Shown: piece after piece, positions 35,065 to 45,560 of the stretch
How positions within the stretch are numbered: position 1 is the stretch's first letter
Layout: each line of letters opens with the position of its first letter
From: an uncultured Acidimicrobiaceae bacterium
Lineage (GTDB): Bacteria; Actinomycetota; Acidimicrobiia; Acidimicrobiales; RAAP-2
DNA length: 50,192 bases
Assembly: GCA_903849265.1 (NCBI GenBank)
Contig: CAININ010000093.1
Coordinates: 1 to 50,192, forward strand
Direction of reading: 5' to 3'
The notes under the pieces: model-generated
Databases searched by the model: none
What the model was told of the DNA's origin: nothing
The model's input: the letters and a program-made list of their open reading frames with translations, nothing else
Position numbers and translations under genes: made by a program

Positions 35065-36657
35065 ATGAACGATGACCAGTCGCAAGAGATGGAGCAACGG
35101 GCTGCAGCCCGTGGCTGGCAGTTCGCCCCCACCTTGTGGGGTCTCATCGAGGCACGCGCCGCAGCGACCCCCGATGCCGTGCTGGCCCATGAAGACACTG
35201 GCAACGAGATGACCTTCGCCTCCTACCGTGACGCCTGCCTGCGGGCTGCTGCTGGTCTGTTCACCGAGCACGGGGTGACCGTCGGGACCAATGTCAGCTG
35301 GGAACTCCCCACCTGGAACGAATCGCTCGTCTTGGTCGGGGCGCTGTGCCGGCTCGGGGCACGCCAGAACCCGCTTATCCCGATCTACCGGAACCGCGAG
35401 GTGGGCTTCATCACCACGCAGAGTGAAGCCGCACTGCTCATCGTGCCCACGGTCTACCGGGGCTTCGACTTCGAGGCCATGGCCCATGAGCTCGCAGCCG
35501 AGCGGCCCGGCTTGTCGGTGCTCGTCGTCGACCGAGCACTCCCCGACGGCGACCCGTCGGTGCTGCCCGCATTCGTGCCGGCCCCGACCTCGGCGAACGA
35601 TGCCCCCGTACGGTGGCTCTTCTACACCTCGGGCACGACCGCCGACCCGAAGGGCGCGACCCACACCGACCTCACGGTGACGGCTTCGGCGCTGGCCATG
35701 GCCGAGTGCCTCGACATGCGGGCCGACGACGTGTCCGCCCTGGTATTCCCCTTCACCCACATCGGCGGCATCGGCTGGCTGATCGCGTCGTTGCTCACCG
35801 GGTGCACCTTGCTCACCACCGAGGCCTTCCATCCGACGGGGACCCCCGAGTTCTTGGCCGCCAACGGCGTCACCCTGGCTGGTTCGGGCACCCCGTTCCA
35901 CTTGGCCTACCTGGCCGCCCAGCGGGCCGCAGGCGCTGAGTCGATCTTTCCGGCCGTGCGGTCGTATCCGGGGGGTGGGGCACCGAAGCCGCCGCAGCTC
36001 CACCACGACCTCAAGAACGAGATCGGCGGAATCGGCATCGTGTCGGGCTACGGCCTGACCGAGGCCCCCATCGTCGTGATGGCCTCCGCACTCGACCCCG
36101 ACCAGAAGCTGGCCGACACCGAGGGACGGCCGACCCCCGGGGTGGAGCTGATCGTGGTCGCCCTCGACGGCACCCGGGCCGGCCCCGGGGTCGAGGGGGA
36201 GATCCGACTGAAGGGCGCCCAAGTCATCTCGGGCTACCTCGACCCAGCGCTCGACGCCGACGCGTTCGACGACGAGGGCTACTTCCGCAGTGGCGACCTC
36301 GGGGTCGTCGACGACGAGGGCTACGTGACCATCACCGGTCGGCTCAAGGACGTCATCATCCGCCACGGAGAGAACATCTCGGCCAAGGAGGTGGAGGACC
36401 TCCTCTACGCCCACCCGGCCGTCGCTGACGTTGCCGTGATCGGTCTGCCCGACCCGAGGACCGGTGAGCGTGCGTGCGCCGTGGTCGCCGTGGCGGAAGG
36501 GGAGTCCTTCGACTTCGCCGCCATGGGGGAGTACCTGGCGGGCAAGGGTCTGCGCACAAACGCCATCCCCGAACAGCTCGAACTCGTCGACGTCGTCCCG
36601 CGCAACCCAGCAGGCAAGATCCTCAAGCACACACTGCGCGAGCAGTTCACGCCATAG
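35065..36657 (+). CDS. AMP-binding acyl-CoA synthetase (cyclohexanecarboxylate-CoA-ligase-like)
   Basis: LFYTSGTTADPKGATHTDL, GYGLTEAPIVVMASAL, GYFRSGDLGVVDDEGYVTITGRLKDVIIRHGENISAKEVEDLLYAHP. Confidence 0.9.
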   Translation: MNDDQSQEMEQRAAARGWQFAPTLWGLIEARAAATPDAVLAHEDTGNEMTFASYRDACLRAAAGLFTEHGVTVGTNVSWELPTWNESLVLVGALCRLGARQNPLIPIYRNREVGFITTQSEAALLIVPTVYRGFDFEAMAHELAAERPGLSVLVVDRALPDGDPSVLPAFVPAPTSANDAPVRWLFYTSGTTADPKGATHTDLTVTASALAMAECLDMRADDVSALVFPFTHIGGIGWLIASLLTGCTLLTTEAFHPTGTPEFLAANGVTLAGSGTPFHLAYLAAQRAAGAESIFPAVRSYPGGGAPKPPQLHHDLKNEIGGIGIVSGYGLTEAPIVVMASALDPDQKLADTEGRPTPGVELIVVALDGTRAGPGVEGEIRLKGAQVISGYLDPALDADAFDDEGYFRSGDLGVVDDEGYVTITGRLKDVIIRHGENISAKEVEDLLYAHPAVADVAVIGLPDPRTGERACAVVAVAEGESFDFAAMGEYLAGKGLRTNAIPEQLELVDVVPRNPAGKILKHTLREQFTP

Positions 36658-40140: not shown

Positions 40141-40172
40141 CGTAGCGTTACGGGAACCAACAGGAGGTGTCC

Positions 40173-41591
40173 ATGGCGGAAACCGAAGGTGTCGGCGCAC
40201 GAATCACGCCGGCCACGACCATTGAAGAGCGTCTGGCCATCGGCCGGGCCATCCGGTCCGAGGTTCCTCGGACGTCGCTTGCATCGTTCGGGTCGGCGAC
40301 GGCCCGTGACCCGGTCGCCATACTCGAGGCGCAGGCCGAATCGCGGGTGGCCGAGCTAAACCCCATCCGCTACGGGCGCATGGCAACGAGCCCCTTCGCC
40401 TTCTTCCGGGGTTCGGCCGCAGTCATGGGGGCGGACCTCGGATCGGTCATCCGGTCGCCGATCAATGTGCAGCTCTGTGGCGACGCCCATCTGTCGAACT
40501 TCGGCATCTTCGCCTCACCGGAGCGCCAGCTCGTCTTCGATATCAACGACTTCGACGAAACGATCCGTGGGCCCTTCTGCTGGGACCTGAAACGCCTGGC
40601 GGCCAGCATCGTCATCGCCGGCCAGGACCTCGGCTTCACGCCGAAGCAACAAGAGAACGCCGTGCTGTCGATGAGTGAGAGCTATCGAGACGGGCTGAAC
40701 GACTTCGCCAAGCAGCGCCACCTCGATGTCTGGTACTCCCACCTGTCGGTCAACGACCTTGCCAAGCAGGTCCGCCGCCGGGTCTCGACTTCCCAGGCGG
40801 CCAAGGTCGACGGACTGGTCAGCCGCGCCCAGAACAAGGACGTGTTCCGGGCCAAGCGGAAGCTCACCGAAGAGGTGGACGGCCGCCGCCGGTTCCGGTC
40901 CGATCCGCCGATCCTCGTGCGCGTGGCGGATCTCGTTGGGGCCGACCCGCTCCAAGACGAGGAGGCAGTGGAGCGCATCGTGGGGACCTACCACGACTCG
41001 CTGACCGACGATCGGACGTTCCTACTGTCGCAGTACCGGATTGTGGACTTCGCCCGCAAGGTGGTGGGCGTCGGCTCGGTGGGCACGCGTTGCTTCATCG
41101 CCCTGCTGATCGGCATCGACGAGGATGACCCGATCATCCTGCAGGTCAAAGAGGCTCAGCGGTCGGTCCTCGAGCCGTACCTCGAACCGAGCCCCTACGA
41201 ACATCAGGGCCGACGGGTGGTCGAGGGCCAACGCATGGTGCAGGCCACTCCCGACATCTTCCTCGGGTGGCAGCAGCAGGTCGACACCGACGGAGTCACC
41301 CGCGACTTCTACGTCCGCCAACTCCACGACCAGAAGGGTTCGGTCGACATCGACAACCTCGATCCGGTCCTCATGGAGGCGTACGCGCGGGTGTGCGGGT
41401 GGGCGCTGGCACGGGCTCATGCCCGCTCGGGCTACCGGTTCGTCCTGTCGGGGTACCTCGGCAGGGGGGACGTGTTCCCCGAGACGATGGCCGCCTTCGC
41501 CTTCGCATATGCCGGACAGAACGCGGCCGACTACCGGCGGTACCTGGACGCCATCGCCAGCGGACGCCTGCACGCCGTAGCTGGCGTCTAG
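40173..41591 (+). CDS. DUF2252 family protein
   Basis: RMATSPFAFFRGSAAVMGADLG, QLCGDAHLSNFGIFASPERQLVFDINDFDETIRGPFCWDLKRLAAS; SD aggagg before ATG 40173. Confidence 0.92.
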   Translation: MAETEGVGARITPATTIEERLAIGRAIRSEVPRTSLASFGSATARDPVAILEAQAESRVAELNPIRYGRMATSPFAFFRGSAAVMGADLGSVIRSPINVQLCGDAHLSNFGIFASPERQLVFDINDFDETIRGPFCWDLKRLAASIVIAGQDLGFTPKQQENAVLSMSESYRDGLNDFAKQRHLDVWYSHLSVNDLAKQVRRRVSTSQAAKVDGLVSRAQNKDVFRAKRKLTEEVDGRRRFRSDPPILVRVADLVGADPLQDEEAVERIVGTYHDSLTDDRTFLLSQYRIVDFARKVVGVGSVGTRCFIALLIGIDEDDPIILQVKEAQRSVLEPYLEPSPYEHQGRRVVEGQRMVQATPDIFLGWQQQVDTDGVTRDFYVRQLHDQKGSVDIDNLDPVLMEAYARVCGWALARAHARSGYRFVLSGYLGRGDVFPETMAAFAFAYAGQNAADYRRYLDAIASGRLHAVAGV

Positions 41592-41718: not shown

Positions 41719-42927
41719 TTACGACAGACGCTCGACGATCATGGCCATGCCCTGGCCGCCGCCGACGCACATCGACTCGAGCCCGAAGGTCTTACCGGTG
41801 TCGTTGAGCCCGTTGAGCAGCGTGGTCATGATGCGGGCTCCGGTCTGGCCGAAGGGGTGGCCCAAGGCGATGGCCCCGCCGTTGATGTTGAGCTTGTCGT
41901 AGCTGATGCCGAGCTCCTTGGCCGAGGGGACGACCTGGGCGGCAAAGGCCTCGTTGATCTCCACGAGGTCGATGTCGTTGATGGTCATGTTGGCCCGGGC
42001 CAGCACCTGACGGATGGCCTCGACGGGGCCGAGGCCCATGATCTCGGGGTTGAGGCCGGTGACGCTGGAGGCGACGATGCGGGCCAGGGGGGTGATGCCG
42101 AGCTCCTTGGCCTTGGTGTCGGACATGACCACCACAGCGGCGGCGCCGTCGTTGAGCGGGCAGGCATTGCCGGCCGTGACCGACCCGCCCTCACGGAACA
42201 CCGGGTTGAGGCTGGCCAGCTTCTCCAGGGTGGTGCCGGCCCGGGGGCCGTCGTCCTTGGAGATGACGGTGCCGTCGGCCAGCGTGACCGGGATCATCTC
42301 CCGGTCGAAGAAGCCGCGCTCTTGGGCGGCGACTGCCCGAAGCTGCGACTGCAGCGCGAACTCGTCCTGCTCCTCGCGGGTGACTCCGGTCTGGTCGACG
42401 ACGTTCTCCGCTGTCTGTCCCATGGAGATGTAGACGTCTGGGAAGGCGCCGTCGAGCGGCGTCCAGCTACCGGACGATGCCGGAGTGCGCTCGGCGGTGC
42501 GGGCCTCGGCAGTGGCGAAGGCGGTGTTGTGAGGTCCGACGTCGGAGGCACCGTGCATGTAGCGGCTGACTGTCTCGACGCCGCCGGCCACGAAGATGTC
42601 GCCTTCGCCAGCCTTGATGGCGTGAGCGGCCATGCGGATGGTCTGGAGCGAGGACGAGCAGTAGCGGTTGACTGTCACGCCCGGGACCTCGGCGAGCCCG
42701 CCGAGGACGGCGGCCACGCGGGCCAGGTTGTAGCCGGCCTCGCCTGCAGGCTGTCCGCAGCCCCACAGGACGTCTTCGACAGTCTGCGGGTCGAGCTGGG
42801 GGACCTTGGCCAGGACCTCGCGGATGACGAGGGCGGACAGGTCGTCGGGACGACACTCGACGAGCGAGCCCTTGTTGGCCCGACCGATGGGGGTCCGGCC
42901 GGTGGCGACGATTACTGCTTCGGGCAT
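41719..42927 (-). CDS. Thiolase (acetyl-CoA acyltransferase, FadA-like)
   Basis: VTVNRYCSSSLQTIRMAAHAI nucleophile Cys, NEAFAAQVVPSAKELG, NINGGAIALGHPFGQTGARI, MCVGGGQGMAMIVERL; SD GAGGAGC. Confidence 0.95.
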   Translation of the reverse strand: MPEAVIVATGRTPIGRANKGSLVECRPDDLSALVIREVLAKVPQLDPQTVEDVLWGCGQPAGEAGYNLARVAAVLGGLAEVPGVTVNRYCSSSLQTIRMAAHAIKAGEGDIFVAGGVETVSRYMHGASDVGPHNTAFATAEARTAERTPASSGSWTPLDGAFPDVYISMGQTAENVVDQTGVTREEQDEFALQSQLRAVAAQERGFFDREMIPVTLADGTVISKDDGPRAGTTLEKLASLNPVFREGGSVTAGNACPLNDGAAAVVVMSDTKAKELGITPLARIVASSVTGLNPEIMGLGPVEAIRQVLARANMTINDIDLVEINEAFAAQVVPSAKELGISYDKLNINGGAIALGHPFGQTGARIMTTLLNGLNDTGKTFGLESMCVGGGQGMAMIVERLS

Positions 42928-43143: not shown

Positions 43144-43157
43144 TGTAACGTGTTCTA
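43144..43157. promoter_or_regulatory. Candidate KstR operator (TnnAACnnGTTnnA)
   Basis: TGTAACGTGTTCTA matches every fixed position of the known mycobacterial KstR 14-bp motif; 50 nt upstream of ATG 43208. Confidence 0.75.
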
Positions 43158-43207
43158 GTCGTGATGGACCGCCCCAGAGGCGGCAGCACCTGACCAGGAG
43201 GGACCCC

Positions 43208-44383
43208 ATGGAGATCGGCTACACCGAGGAGCACGAAGCGCTCCGCAACGAGTTGCGTGCCTACTACGAGCAGCTCCTCACCCCCGAGGTGGTCGAGCAG
43301 CTCCACCAGGGCCACGGCATCGGCCCCGACATGCGTCGGGTGGTCAAGCAGATGGCCACGGACGGCTGGCTCGGGATCGGCTGGCCCGAGGAGTGGGGCG
43401 GCCAGGGCAAGAGCGCCATCGAGCAGTTCATCTTCTTCGACGAGTCCATGCGGGCCGGTGCACCGGTGCCCATGCTCACCATCAACACCGTCGGACCGAC
43501 GATCATGCAGTACGGCACCCAGGAGATGAAGGAGTTCTTCCTTCCGAAGATCCTGGCCGGCGACATCCACTTCTGCATCGGCTACACCGAGCCGGAGTCG
43601 GGCACCGACCTCGCCTCGATTCAGACCCGGGCGGTCCGCGACGGCGACGAGTACGTGATCAACGGTCAGAAGATCTACACCTCGCTGGCCGGCGACGCCG
43701 ACTACATCTGGCTGGCCACCCGGACCGATCCCGACGTCTCCAAGCACAAGGGCATCTCGATGTTCATCGTGCCCATGGACACCCCGGGCATCAAGGTCGT
43801 CCCCATGCACCTGTTGGGCGATCACAACATCAACTACACGTTCTACGAGGACGTTCGGGTCCCGGCCGCCAACCTGGTCGGGGGAGAGAACCAAGGGTGG
43901 TCGCTGATCACCAACCAGCTCAACCACGAGCGGGTGACGCTGTGCTCGTCGGGGCTCATCGAGCGGGCCATGACCGACACTCGGGCCTGGGCCCAGGCCA
44001 CCAAGCTGGCCGACGGCCGTCGGGTGATCGACCAGGAGTGGGTGCAGGTCCACCTGGCCCGCATCTACGCCCGCCTCGAGTTCCTGAAGCTCATCAACTG
44101 GAAGGTGGCGTGGACCGCTACCGAGGGCCATCTCGACGTGGCGGACGCATCCACCATCAAGGTGTTCGGCACCGAGTTCTACCTCGAGGCCTTCAAGCTC
44201 ATGATGGAGATCGTCGGCCAAGCCGGCTACCTGGCCAAGGGATCACCCGAGGCCGTGCTGGCCGGGCGGCTCGAGATGTACGCACGCAGCTTGGTCATCC
44301 TGACCTTCGGCGGCGGGACCAACGAGATCCAGCGGGACCTGATCGCCATCTTCGGCCTGGGCATGCCCCGGTCGTTGCGCTGA
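43208..44383 (+). CDS. fadE26: Acyl-CoA dehydrogenase, FadE26 (ChsE4)-like
   Basis: WLGIGWPEEWGGQGKSAIEQFIFFDESMRAGAPVPMLTINTVGPTIMQYGTQEMKEFFLPKILAGDIHFCIGYTEPESGTDLASIQTRAVRDGDEYVINGQKIYTS..LTFGGGTNEIQRDLIA; paired with a FadE27-like gene. Confidence 0.8.
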   Translation: MEIGYTEEHEALRNELRAYYEQLLTPEVVEQLHQGHGIGPDMRRVVKQMATDGWLGIGWPEEWGGQGKSAIEQFIFFDESMRAGAPVPMLTINTVGPTIMQYGTQEMKEFFLPKILAGDIHFCIGYTEPESGTDLASIQTRAVRDGDEYVINGQKIYTSLAGDADYIWLATRTDPDVSKHKGISMFIVPMDTPGIKVVPMHLLGDHNINYTFYEDVRVPAANLVGGENQGWSLITNQLNHERVTLCSSGLIERAMTDTRAWAQATKLADGRRVIDQEWVQVHLARIYARLEFLKLINWKVAWTATEGHLDVADASTIKVFGTEFYLEAFKLMMEIVGQAGYLAKGSPEAVLAGRLEMYARSLVILTFGGGTNEIQRDLIAIFGLGMPRSLR

Positions 44384-44432
44384 CCGGCCCCAGACCACTT
44401 CTGCACCGAACAAAGACGAAAGAGGACACACC

Positions 44433-45560
44433 ATGGACTTCTCACTGAGCGAGGAGCAGGAGGCCGTCCGCGAGTTGGCCGACCGCATCTTCACCGACCT
44501 GTCGACCCAGGAGCGCCTCCGCGAGATGGAGATCGCTGAAGGCAACGACCGCTTCGACGCCAAGCTGTGGTCGGAGCTGGGATCTGCCGGCTTGCTCGGG
44601 ATCTCCCTACCTGAAGACGTGGGGGGTGCCGGACTCGGCTTCCTCGAAACAGGGCTCCTGGCCGAGGCCGCCGGCCGGACTGCGGCATACGTGCCCGTGG
44701 TGGAGACGTTGGCCGCAGCCGCACCGGCCATCGCCCGGTTCGGCACCGATGCCCAGAAGCAGCAGTGGCTGCCGGGTGTCGTGGCCGGCGACACGATCCT
44801 GACCACTGCGCTCGTGGAGCTCGGCGGCACGCCGTCCGCCCCGGCCGCGGTGGCCGAGCGCAGCGGCGACGGGTGGACGCTGACCGGAGTCAAGGCGTGT
44901 GTGCCATCGGGCACCTTTGCCGACGCCGTGCTGGTGACCGCCCGCATCGAACCCGACGGCGTTGCCGTGTTCCTGGTGCCGACCGCAAGTGCTGGCCTCA
45001 GCATCGAGGAGCAGCAGGCCAACAACGGCCAGTCCGAGGGACTGGTCACGCTGGCTGGCGTCGTGCTCGGTGCCGACGCGCTGCTCGGCTCGGTCGAGGA
45101 CGGACCGTCCATCGTCGAGTTCCTGGTCGCCCGCAGCACCACCGCGCTGGCTCTGATGCAGGCGGGGGCTGCCGCTGCCTCACTAGCACTGGTCGCCGCA
45201 TACACGAAGACCCGGGAGCAGTTCGGCAAGCCGATCGCCACGTTCCAGGCCGTAGGTCAACGGGCGGCCGATGCCTACGTCGACGCCGAGGCCATCCGGC
45301 TGACCGCATGGCAGGCTGCCTGGCGGATCGACGAGGGGCTGCCGGCTGACAAGGAAGTCGCCGTGGCCAAGTTCTGGGCCGCCGACGGTGGCCAGCGAGT
45401 CGTCCACGCCGCGGTCCACCTCCACGGGGGCGTCGGTGTCGACCGGGAGTACCCGCTGCACCGGTTCTTCCTCAACACCAAGCACATCGAGCTGACCCTC
45501 GGTGGCGCCACCGACCAGCTGCTTCGCCTGGGGGCCACCCTGGCCGCCGAGCCGGCCTGA
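44433..45560 (+). CDS. fadE27: Acyl-CoA dehydrogenase, FadE27 (ChsE5)-like
   Basis: MDFSLSEEQEAVRELADRIF, YTKTREQFGKPIATFQAVGQRAADAYVDAEAIRLTAWQAAWRIDEG, VHLHGGVGVDREYPLHRFFLNTKHIELTLGGATDQL. Confidence 0.8.
   Translation: MDFSLSEEQEAVRELADRIFTDLSTQERLREMEIAEGNDRFDAKLWSELGSAGLLGISLPEDVGGAGLGFLETGLLAEAAGRTAAYVPVVETLAAAAPAIARFGTDAQKQQWLPGVVAGDTILTTALVELGGTPSAPAAVAERSGDGWTLTGVKACVPSGTFADAVLVTARIEPDGVAVFLVPTASAGLSIEEQQANNGQSEGLVTLAGVVLGADALLGSVEDGPSIVEFLVARSTTALALMQAGAAAASLALVAAYTKTREQFGKPIATFQAVGQRAADAYVDAEAIRLTAWQAAWRIDEGLPADKEVAVAKFWAADGGQRVVHAAVHLHGGVGVDREYPLHRFFLNTKHIELTLGGATDQLLRLGATLAAEPA

Follow-up and report, generated by a model that had tools for sequence, protein, structure and literature searches.

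A KstR-type operator in front of a ChsE4–ChsE5-like gene pair in uncultured Acidimicrobiaceae

The control logic of KstR is familiar from work on mycobacteria and related actinomycetes. In mycobacteria, KstR acts on its operator as a dimeric repressor, and operators that overlap a −10 element have been described (PMC1995591). Specifically, Kendall et al. 2007 give ACTGTAACGTGTTCTAGTTA for Rv3525c/Rv3526 and for MSMEG_5925, of which the MSMEG_5925 site is backed by RT-qPCR and the Rv3525c/Rv3526 site has the EMSA entry "not determined", together with the EMSA-positive operator ACTAGAACGTGTTACAACCG of Mtb fadE26 (Rv3503c/Rv3504) (PMC1995591). On the enzyme side, the closest described systems are ChsE4–ChsE5 (FadE26–FadE27, PDB 4X28) and the steroid acyl-CoA dehydrogenase Tcur3483–Tcur3481 (PDB 6WY8); the catalytic Glu is placed in the alpha subunit, and a large cavity owes its shape to Pro89 and Pro91 (PMC11153573). 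In the literature collection searched, no paper names both KstR and Acidimicrobi-.

Here we describe a locus on a 50,192-base stretch of DNA (hereafter the window) from an uncultured Acidimicrobiaceae bacterium, whose genome is a fragmented MAG that is 82% complete. The locus comprises the following features:

43144–43157, no strand: KstR-type operator TGTAACGTGTTCTA, half-sites TGTAAC and GTTCTA with a 2-nt spacer; the same 14-mer is found at Rv3525c/Rv3526 and MSMEG_5925 (PMC1995591)
42928–43207, no strand: divergent intergenic promoter region of 280 nt, common to the thiolase gene and the fadE pair (from synteny in other exact-operator loci)
43196–43202, plus strand: Shine–Dalgarno-like AGGAGGG ahead of the FadE26-like start (read from the sequence)
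43208–44383, plus strand: FadE26/ChsE4-like alpha subunit of a predicted steroid acyl-CoA dehydrogenase, 391 aa, hereafter P0001 (from PDB matches, tree and alignment)
44433–45560, plus strand: FadE27/ChsE5-like beta subunit, 375 aa, hereafter P0002 (from PDB matches)
41719–42927, minus strand: divergent thiolase, acetyl-CoA C-acetyltransferase (PRK07851 equivalog, 666 bits versus a cut-off of 580; synteny)

Position and conservation of the operator

The 14-mer TNNAACNNGTTNNA occurs once in the window, at 43144–43157, which is also the sole exact match in the window to TnnAACnnGTTnnA, the palindromic core of KstR operators. Between the operator and the ATG of the fadE26-like gene at 43208 lie 50 nt, and the operator begins 216 nt from the start of the divergent thiolase gene at 42927. 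A sequence-only reading of this DNA had placed an exact KstR-type operator at this distance from the fadE pair, in a divergent region shared with a thiolase, and both statements hold. Like KstR-type sites in general, it is intergenic and close to the promoters of lipid or steroid genes. The core 14-mer of ACTGTAACGTGTTCTAGTTA equals that of the window letter for letter, and the half-sites of the Mtb fadE26 operator, TAGAAC and GTTACA, are the same two half-sites. On a scoring matrix built from 46 mycobacterial operators (PMC1995591), the window operator reaches 22.0 bits, which lies at the 33rd percentile of these known sites. The asymmetry of the TGTAAC half-site was considered as an oddity and dropped, since mycobacterial operators show the same form (PMC1995591). 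Judged by its letters, the site is a genuine KstR-type operator; it represents an established type of regulatory element in a new lineage.

Taken alone, the motif in the window is mildly unusual, as shuffled windows hold 0.08 copies of it on average and 8 of 100 shuffles hold at least one. It is its conservation among relatives that puts the motif far beyond chance. Among 121 sampled genomes of the family, 14 of them from the genus of the window, the exact 14-mer is present in 26 copies in 25 genomes, and the reversed control 14-mer has no match. Each of the 14 sampled same-genus genomes carries exactly one copy. Moreover, 25 of the 26 copies lie upstream of an orthologue of P0001, and at these fadE loci a thiolase orthologue occupies the other side wherever the contig extends (at L139 the contig ends short of the thiolase). 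Within the genus, the distance between the operator and fadE varies from 50 to 179 nt, and all 8-mers common to the 14 same-genus intergenic regions fall in the operator or its next base. This footprint, exact in 14 of 14 genomes at variable spacing and with no other common 8-mer, refutes the reading of the motif as a chance match in a GC-rich genome, to which we assign a negligible probability, even though the degenerate consensus as a raw count is unenriched genome-wide (21 matches versus 15 for the reversed control).

TAGAACnnGTTCTA or a near variant also precedes the more distant orthologues of Actinophytocola, Aquihabitans, Jatrophihabitans and Micromonospora. Across related orthologous loci, the exact core is missing within 400 bp upstream at about 14 of 39, and about 5 of these have a near (one-mismatch) site. 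The occurrence of the same operator, letter for letter, on orthologous Acidimicrobiaceae genes suggests that the repressor–operator pair predates the orders of mycobacteria and related actinomycetes, and the operator offers a way to recognise uncultured bacteria with steroid side-chain catabolism. One exact operator (G037:C42:35284–35297, L153) lies outside a thiolase/fadE region; it stands close to where a RibD-like gene starts, perhaps by chance.

The FadE26/FadE27-like pair and the divergent thiolase

Compared with solved structures, P0001 is closest to ChsE4 (4x28_A, 474 bits), followed by Tcur3483 (411 bits), with the next solved acyl-CoA dehydrogenase at 141 bits, and P0002 is closest to Tcur3481 (279 bits), followed by ChsE5 (4x28_D, 246 bits), with the next at 132 bits. 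The two adjacent genes thus encode the two subunits nearest to the chains of 4X28 and 6WY8, which bears out their earlier assignment as a FadE26/FadE27-like (ChsE4/ChsE5) pair. P0001 shares 57% identity with ChsE4 over 389 positions. In particular, its conserved Glu241 aligns with ChsE4 Glu247, which we take to be the catalytic residue, and the PVP motif is retained in the alignment. The pair therefore resembles ChsE4–ChsE5 in its adjacent alpha and beta genes and in the kept catalytic Glu and PVP loop, but differs from it in that P0002 is slightly closer to Tcur3481 than to ChsE5. Tcur3483–Tcur3481 belongs to the same heteromeric family and supplies the second-best match of P0001 and the best match of P0002; its Tcur3483 subunit, however, has a nearer relative here in a paralogue of P0001 on contig C3 (58% identity). 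A quick tree groups P0001, as the sequence-only assignment implied, with ChsE4 and Tcur3483 in a fully supported clade of steroid acyl-CoA dehydrogenases; at the deciding fork ChsE4 pairs with Tcur3483 (SH-aLRT 81), and the tree ranks neither as nearer to P0001. Because the C3 copy of the genome pairs with Tcur3483, P0001 is most simply interpreted as the ChsE4 counterpart.

The divergent partner of the pair is a PRK07851-type thiolase gene, whereas the Mtb fadE26 region has Rv3503c. An assignment of this thiolase as FadA6 was considered and dropped, as it matches PRK07851 and a separate FadA6-like thiolase is encoded on contig C185. The thiolase gene adjoins a gene for a DUF2252 protein (window 40170–41588). 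Elsewhere in the window, a cytochrome P450 gene (37612–38811) lies close to one for an AMP-binding acyl-CoA synthetase (35065–36654); among solved structures, the P450 is most similar to P450cin (224 bits).

A KstR-lineage regulator and its candidate regulon

The sequence-only reading had proposed looking for a KstR homologue in the genome, and one is found at G000:C172:2471–3070. The protein encoded there (the C172 protein) scores 116 bits to Mtb KstR, and the next match of the genome scores 29 (the KstR query is identical to PDB KstR over its length). Its best PDB match is KstR with 117 bits, the next protein reaching 84, and the two proteins are reciprocal best matches. In the DNA-binding domain the C172 protein and KstR share 64% identity, and the ligand domain of the C172 protein diverges; overall, the regulator is only 37–39% identical to Mtb KstR. 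NF033703, the NCBIfam KstR equivalog, is its only NCBIfam match at E≤1e-30. Since its score of 158.6 lies below the NF033703 cut-off of 280, the protein is classified from its sequence as KstR-lineage rather than as KstR.

Of the 121 family genomes, 37 encode a C172 orthologue, and every one of the 25 exact-operator genomes is among them; the exact operator was found in no sampled genome that lacks a C172 orthologue; at genus level the co-occurrence has a Fisher p of 0.004, the genome count being inflated by relatedness. In two sister genera (L188, L191), the KstR-like gene has an operator of its own at −27 and −24, the two sites scoring 23.9 and 16.2 bits. In the genus of the window, unlike Mycobacterium, the C172-type gene has no operator upstream, and the C172 gene is not adjacent to the fadE pair.

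A real operator might be bound by a different TetR paralogue, for example the second, more distant KstR-like protein of some relatives. Such a protein, 35–40% identical to the C172 protein, is present in 5 sampled genomes, the genome of the window has 27 TetR_N matches, and half-sites of related TetRs can look alike. Yet the paralogue is undetected in most operator-bearing genomes, the own genome's next KstR match stands at 29 bits against 116, and both the 64% identity of the DNA-binding domain and the operators before the C172 orthologue's own gene in two genera point to the C172 protein, which makes a different binder improbable.

We propose that the TetR-family repressor encoded on C172 most likely binds the operator as a dimer, that the bound repressor would block the two divergent promoters and thereby keep the thiolase and the side-chain dehydrogenase off, and that a sterol-derived acyl-CoA, a CoA thioester, would release it. 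The analysis establishes the sequence match, the extreme conservation, the gene identities, the co-occurrence of operator and regulator and the sites before other genes; we infer binding of protein to DNA, repression, the nature of the inducer and the C172 protein, rather than another TetR, as the binder. It is very probable that a KstR-lineage C172 repressor at this operator controls the thiolase and the ChsE4–ChsE5-type dehydrogenase with a sterol-derived acyl-CoA as inducer, and that its regulon is wider. Weighing against this reading are the NF033703 score below the cut-off and the divergent ligand domain of the C172 protein, the lack of an operator before its own gene in this genus, the position of that gene away from the fadE pair, the related loci without an exact core, the unenriched raw motif count and the fragmented MAG. 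Further probable targets of the repressor are fadA5, a FadD17/CasI-type synthetase gene, a FadD4-like synthetase gene with its SDR gene, and a CYP125/ChsE–ChsH–Ltp2 cluster.

On the mycobacterial matrix, 4 sites in the genome reach 20 bits, where an independent-base model predicts 0.27, and each of the 4 lies before lipid/CoA or SDR genes:

C371: before a FadD4-like synthetase gene with a divergent SDR gene
Window: before the fadE pair
C3: before a FadD17/CasI-type synthetase gene with a divergent gene for a luciferase-like oxidoreductase
C184: before an SDR gene

A fifth matrix site (17.4 bits) lies inside a gene. The genome-wide enrichment that had been proposed as a check is therefore seen for matrix sites of at least 20 bits and not for the raw consensus count; 6 of the 21 consensus sites, compared with 0 of the 15 controls, lie before CoA or SDR genes, which yields only p = 0.03 (with our own gene calls), and we therefore base the case on the matrix and the footprint. 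In addition, fadA5, identified as a PRK07850 equivalog (675 versus a cut-off of 515), is preceded by the perfect palindrome TAGAACCGGTTCTA (15.0 bits). In all 14 same-genus genomes, AGAACnnGTTCTATACT lies before fadA5 and overlaps a TATACT −10-like box, which agrees with the published description of KstR sites (PMC1995591). On C3, a weaker site that scores 17.3 bits and has a single mismatch in its core is located between a CYP125-like P450 gene, the best solved relatives of which are CYP125 proteins, and a ChsE-like gene that is followed by ChsH2-like and Ltp2-like genes. The regulon of Mycobacterium KstR (Rv3574) likewise includes fadE26–fadE27 and fadA5, and probably a fadD17-like gene as well, but sites per genome are few in the lineage studied here.

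On the same stretch of C3 (G000:C3:1–10502, L277), the CYP125-like P450 gene is divergent from the Tcur3483-like dehydrogenase gene, and KstR-type sites stand at 1049 and 9173. Near one end, contigs C371 and C405 (L211, L212) share two features, a beta-propeller-like gene rich in repeats and the start of an enoyl-CoA hydratase gene, and in G079 no more than 10 kb separates the fadA5 site from a 23.7-bit site. Because of these shared end genes and the spacing in G079, C371 and C405 may be neighbours in the genome.

Side-chain and ring-degradation genes

Genes like those for CYP125, FadA5, Ltp2, ChsE and IpdAB are present. The ring A/B genes present a different picture, for which query sequences of HsaC, KshA, KstD, HsaA and IpdA were used. 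HsaC gave no match at E≤1e-30 throughout the 14 same-genus genomes, of which 10 have a completeness of 90% or more. KstD and KshA gave weak or partial matches only in these 14 genomes, with a joined query whose sensitivity may fall below that of single queries; the IpdA control of the joined query was found in 14 of 14. The FAD protein of the window's own genome that KstD matches is a PRK07121 FAD-binding protein. The combination of HsaC, KstD and KshA that marks aerobic 9,10-seco sterol degradation is thus not recovered in the genus, which in this respect differs from the Mycobacterium KstR regulon.

These genomes likely hold a module for the side chain and the C/D rings but lack the canonical one for rings A and B. 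Because HsaC is unfound and KstD and KshA are unclear in the genus, the genes do not imply full degradation of sterols by the 9,10-seco route. Accordingly, of the conserved sterol catabolism and repressor logic claimed by the sequence-only reading, the side-chain genes and their control are supported and complete sterol catabolism is not.

The gene content bears on what the repressor and the enzymes are kept for. With HsaC unfound in 14 of 14 genomes, KstD and KshA weak where the IpdA control succeeds throughout, and the KstD-matched protein belonging to PRK07121, the substrate might be something other than whole sterols, either a different acyl-CoA of polycyclic or branched isoprenoid type or remnants of steroids set free by neighbours. 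We consider this rather unlikely, as CYP125-, FadA5-, Ltp2-, ChsE- and IpdA-like genes, which are steroid-pathway genes in studied bacteria, are all present. Returning to steroids as the substrate, we tentatively suggest, at somewhat less than even confidence, that this Acidimicrobiaceae genus combines a KstR-controlled side-chain module and an IpdAB C/D-ring module with no recognisable 9,10-seco ring A/B module, and that it either opens rings A and B by a novel route or eats partly degraded steroids from neighbours. With its strictly conserved operator, the known KstR control logic extends to a distant bacterial class seemingly without the usual genes for the first ring opening, and the missing ring A/B genes pose a concrete question, namely the fate of the steroid nucleus in these organisms. 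As for the C/D-ring genes, contig C185 (G000:C185:1–8707, L210), which has no KstR-type site of at least 13 bits, carries a cluster of IpdA-, IpdB- and IpdC-like genes with the FadA6-like thiolase.
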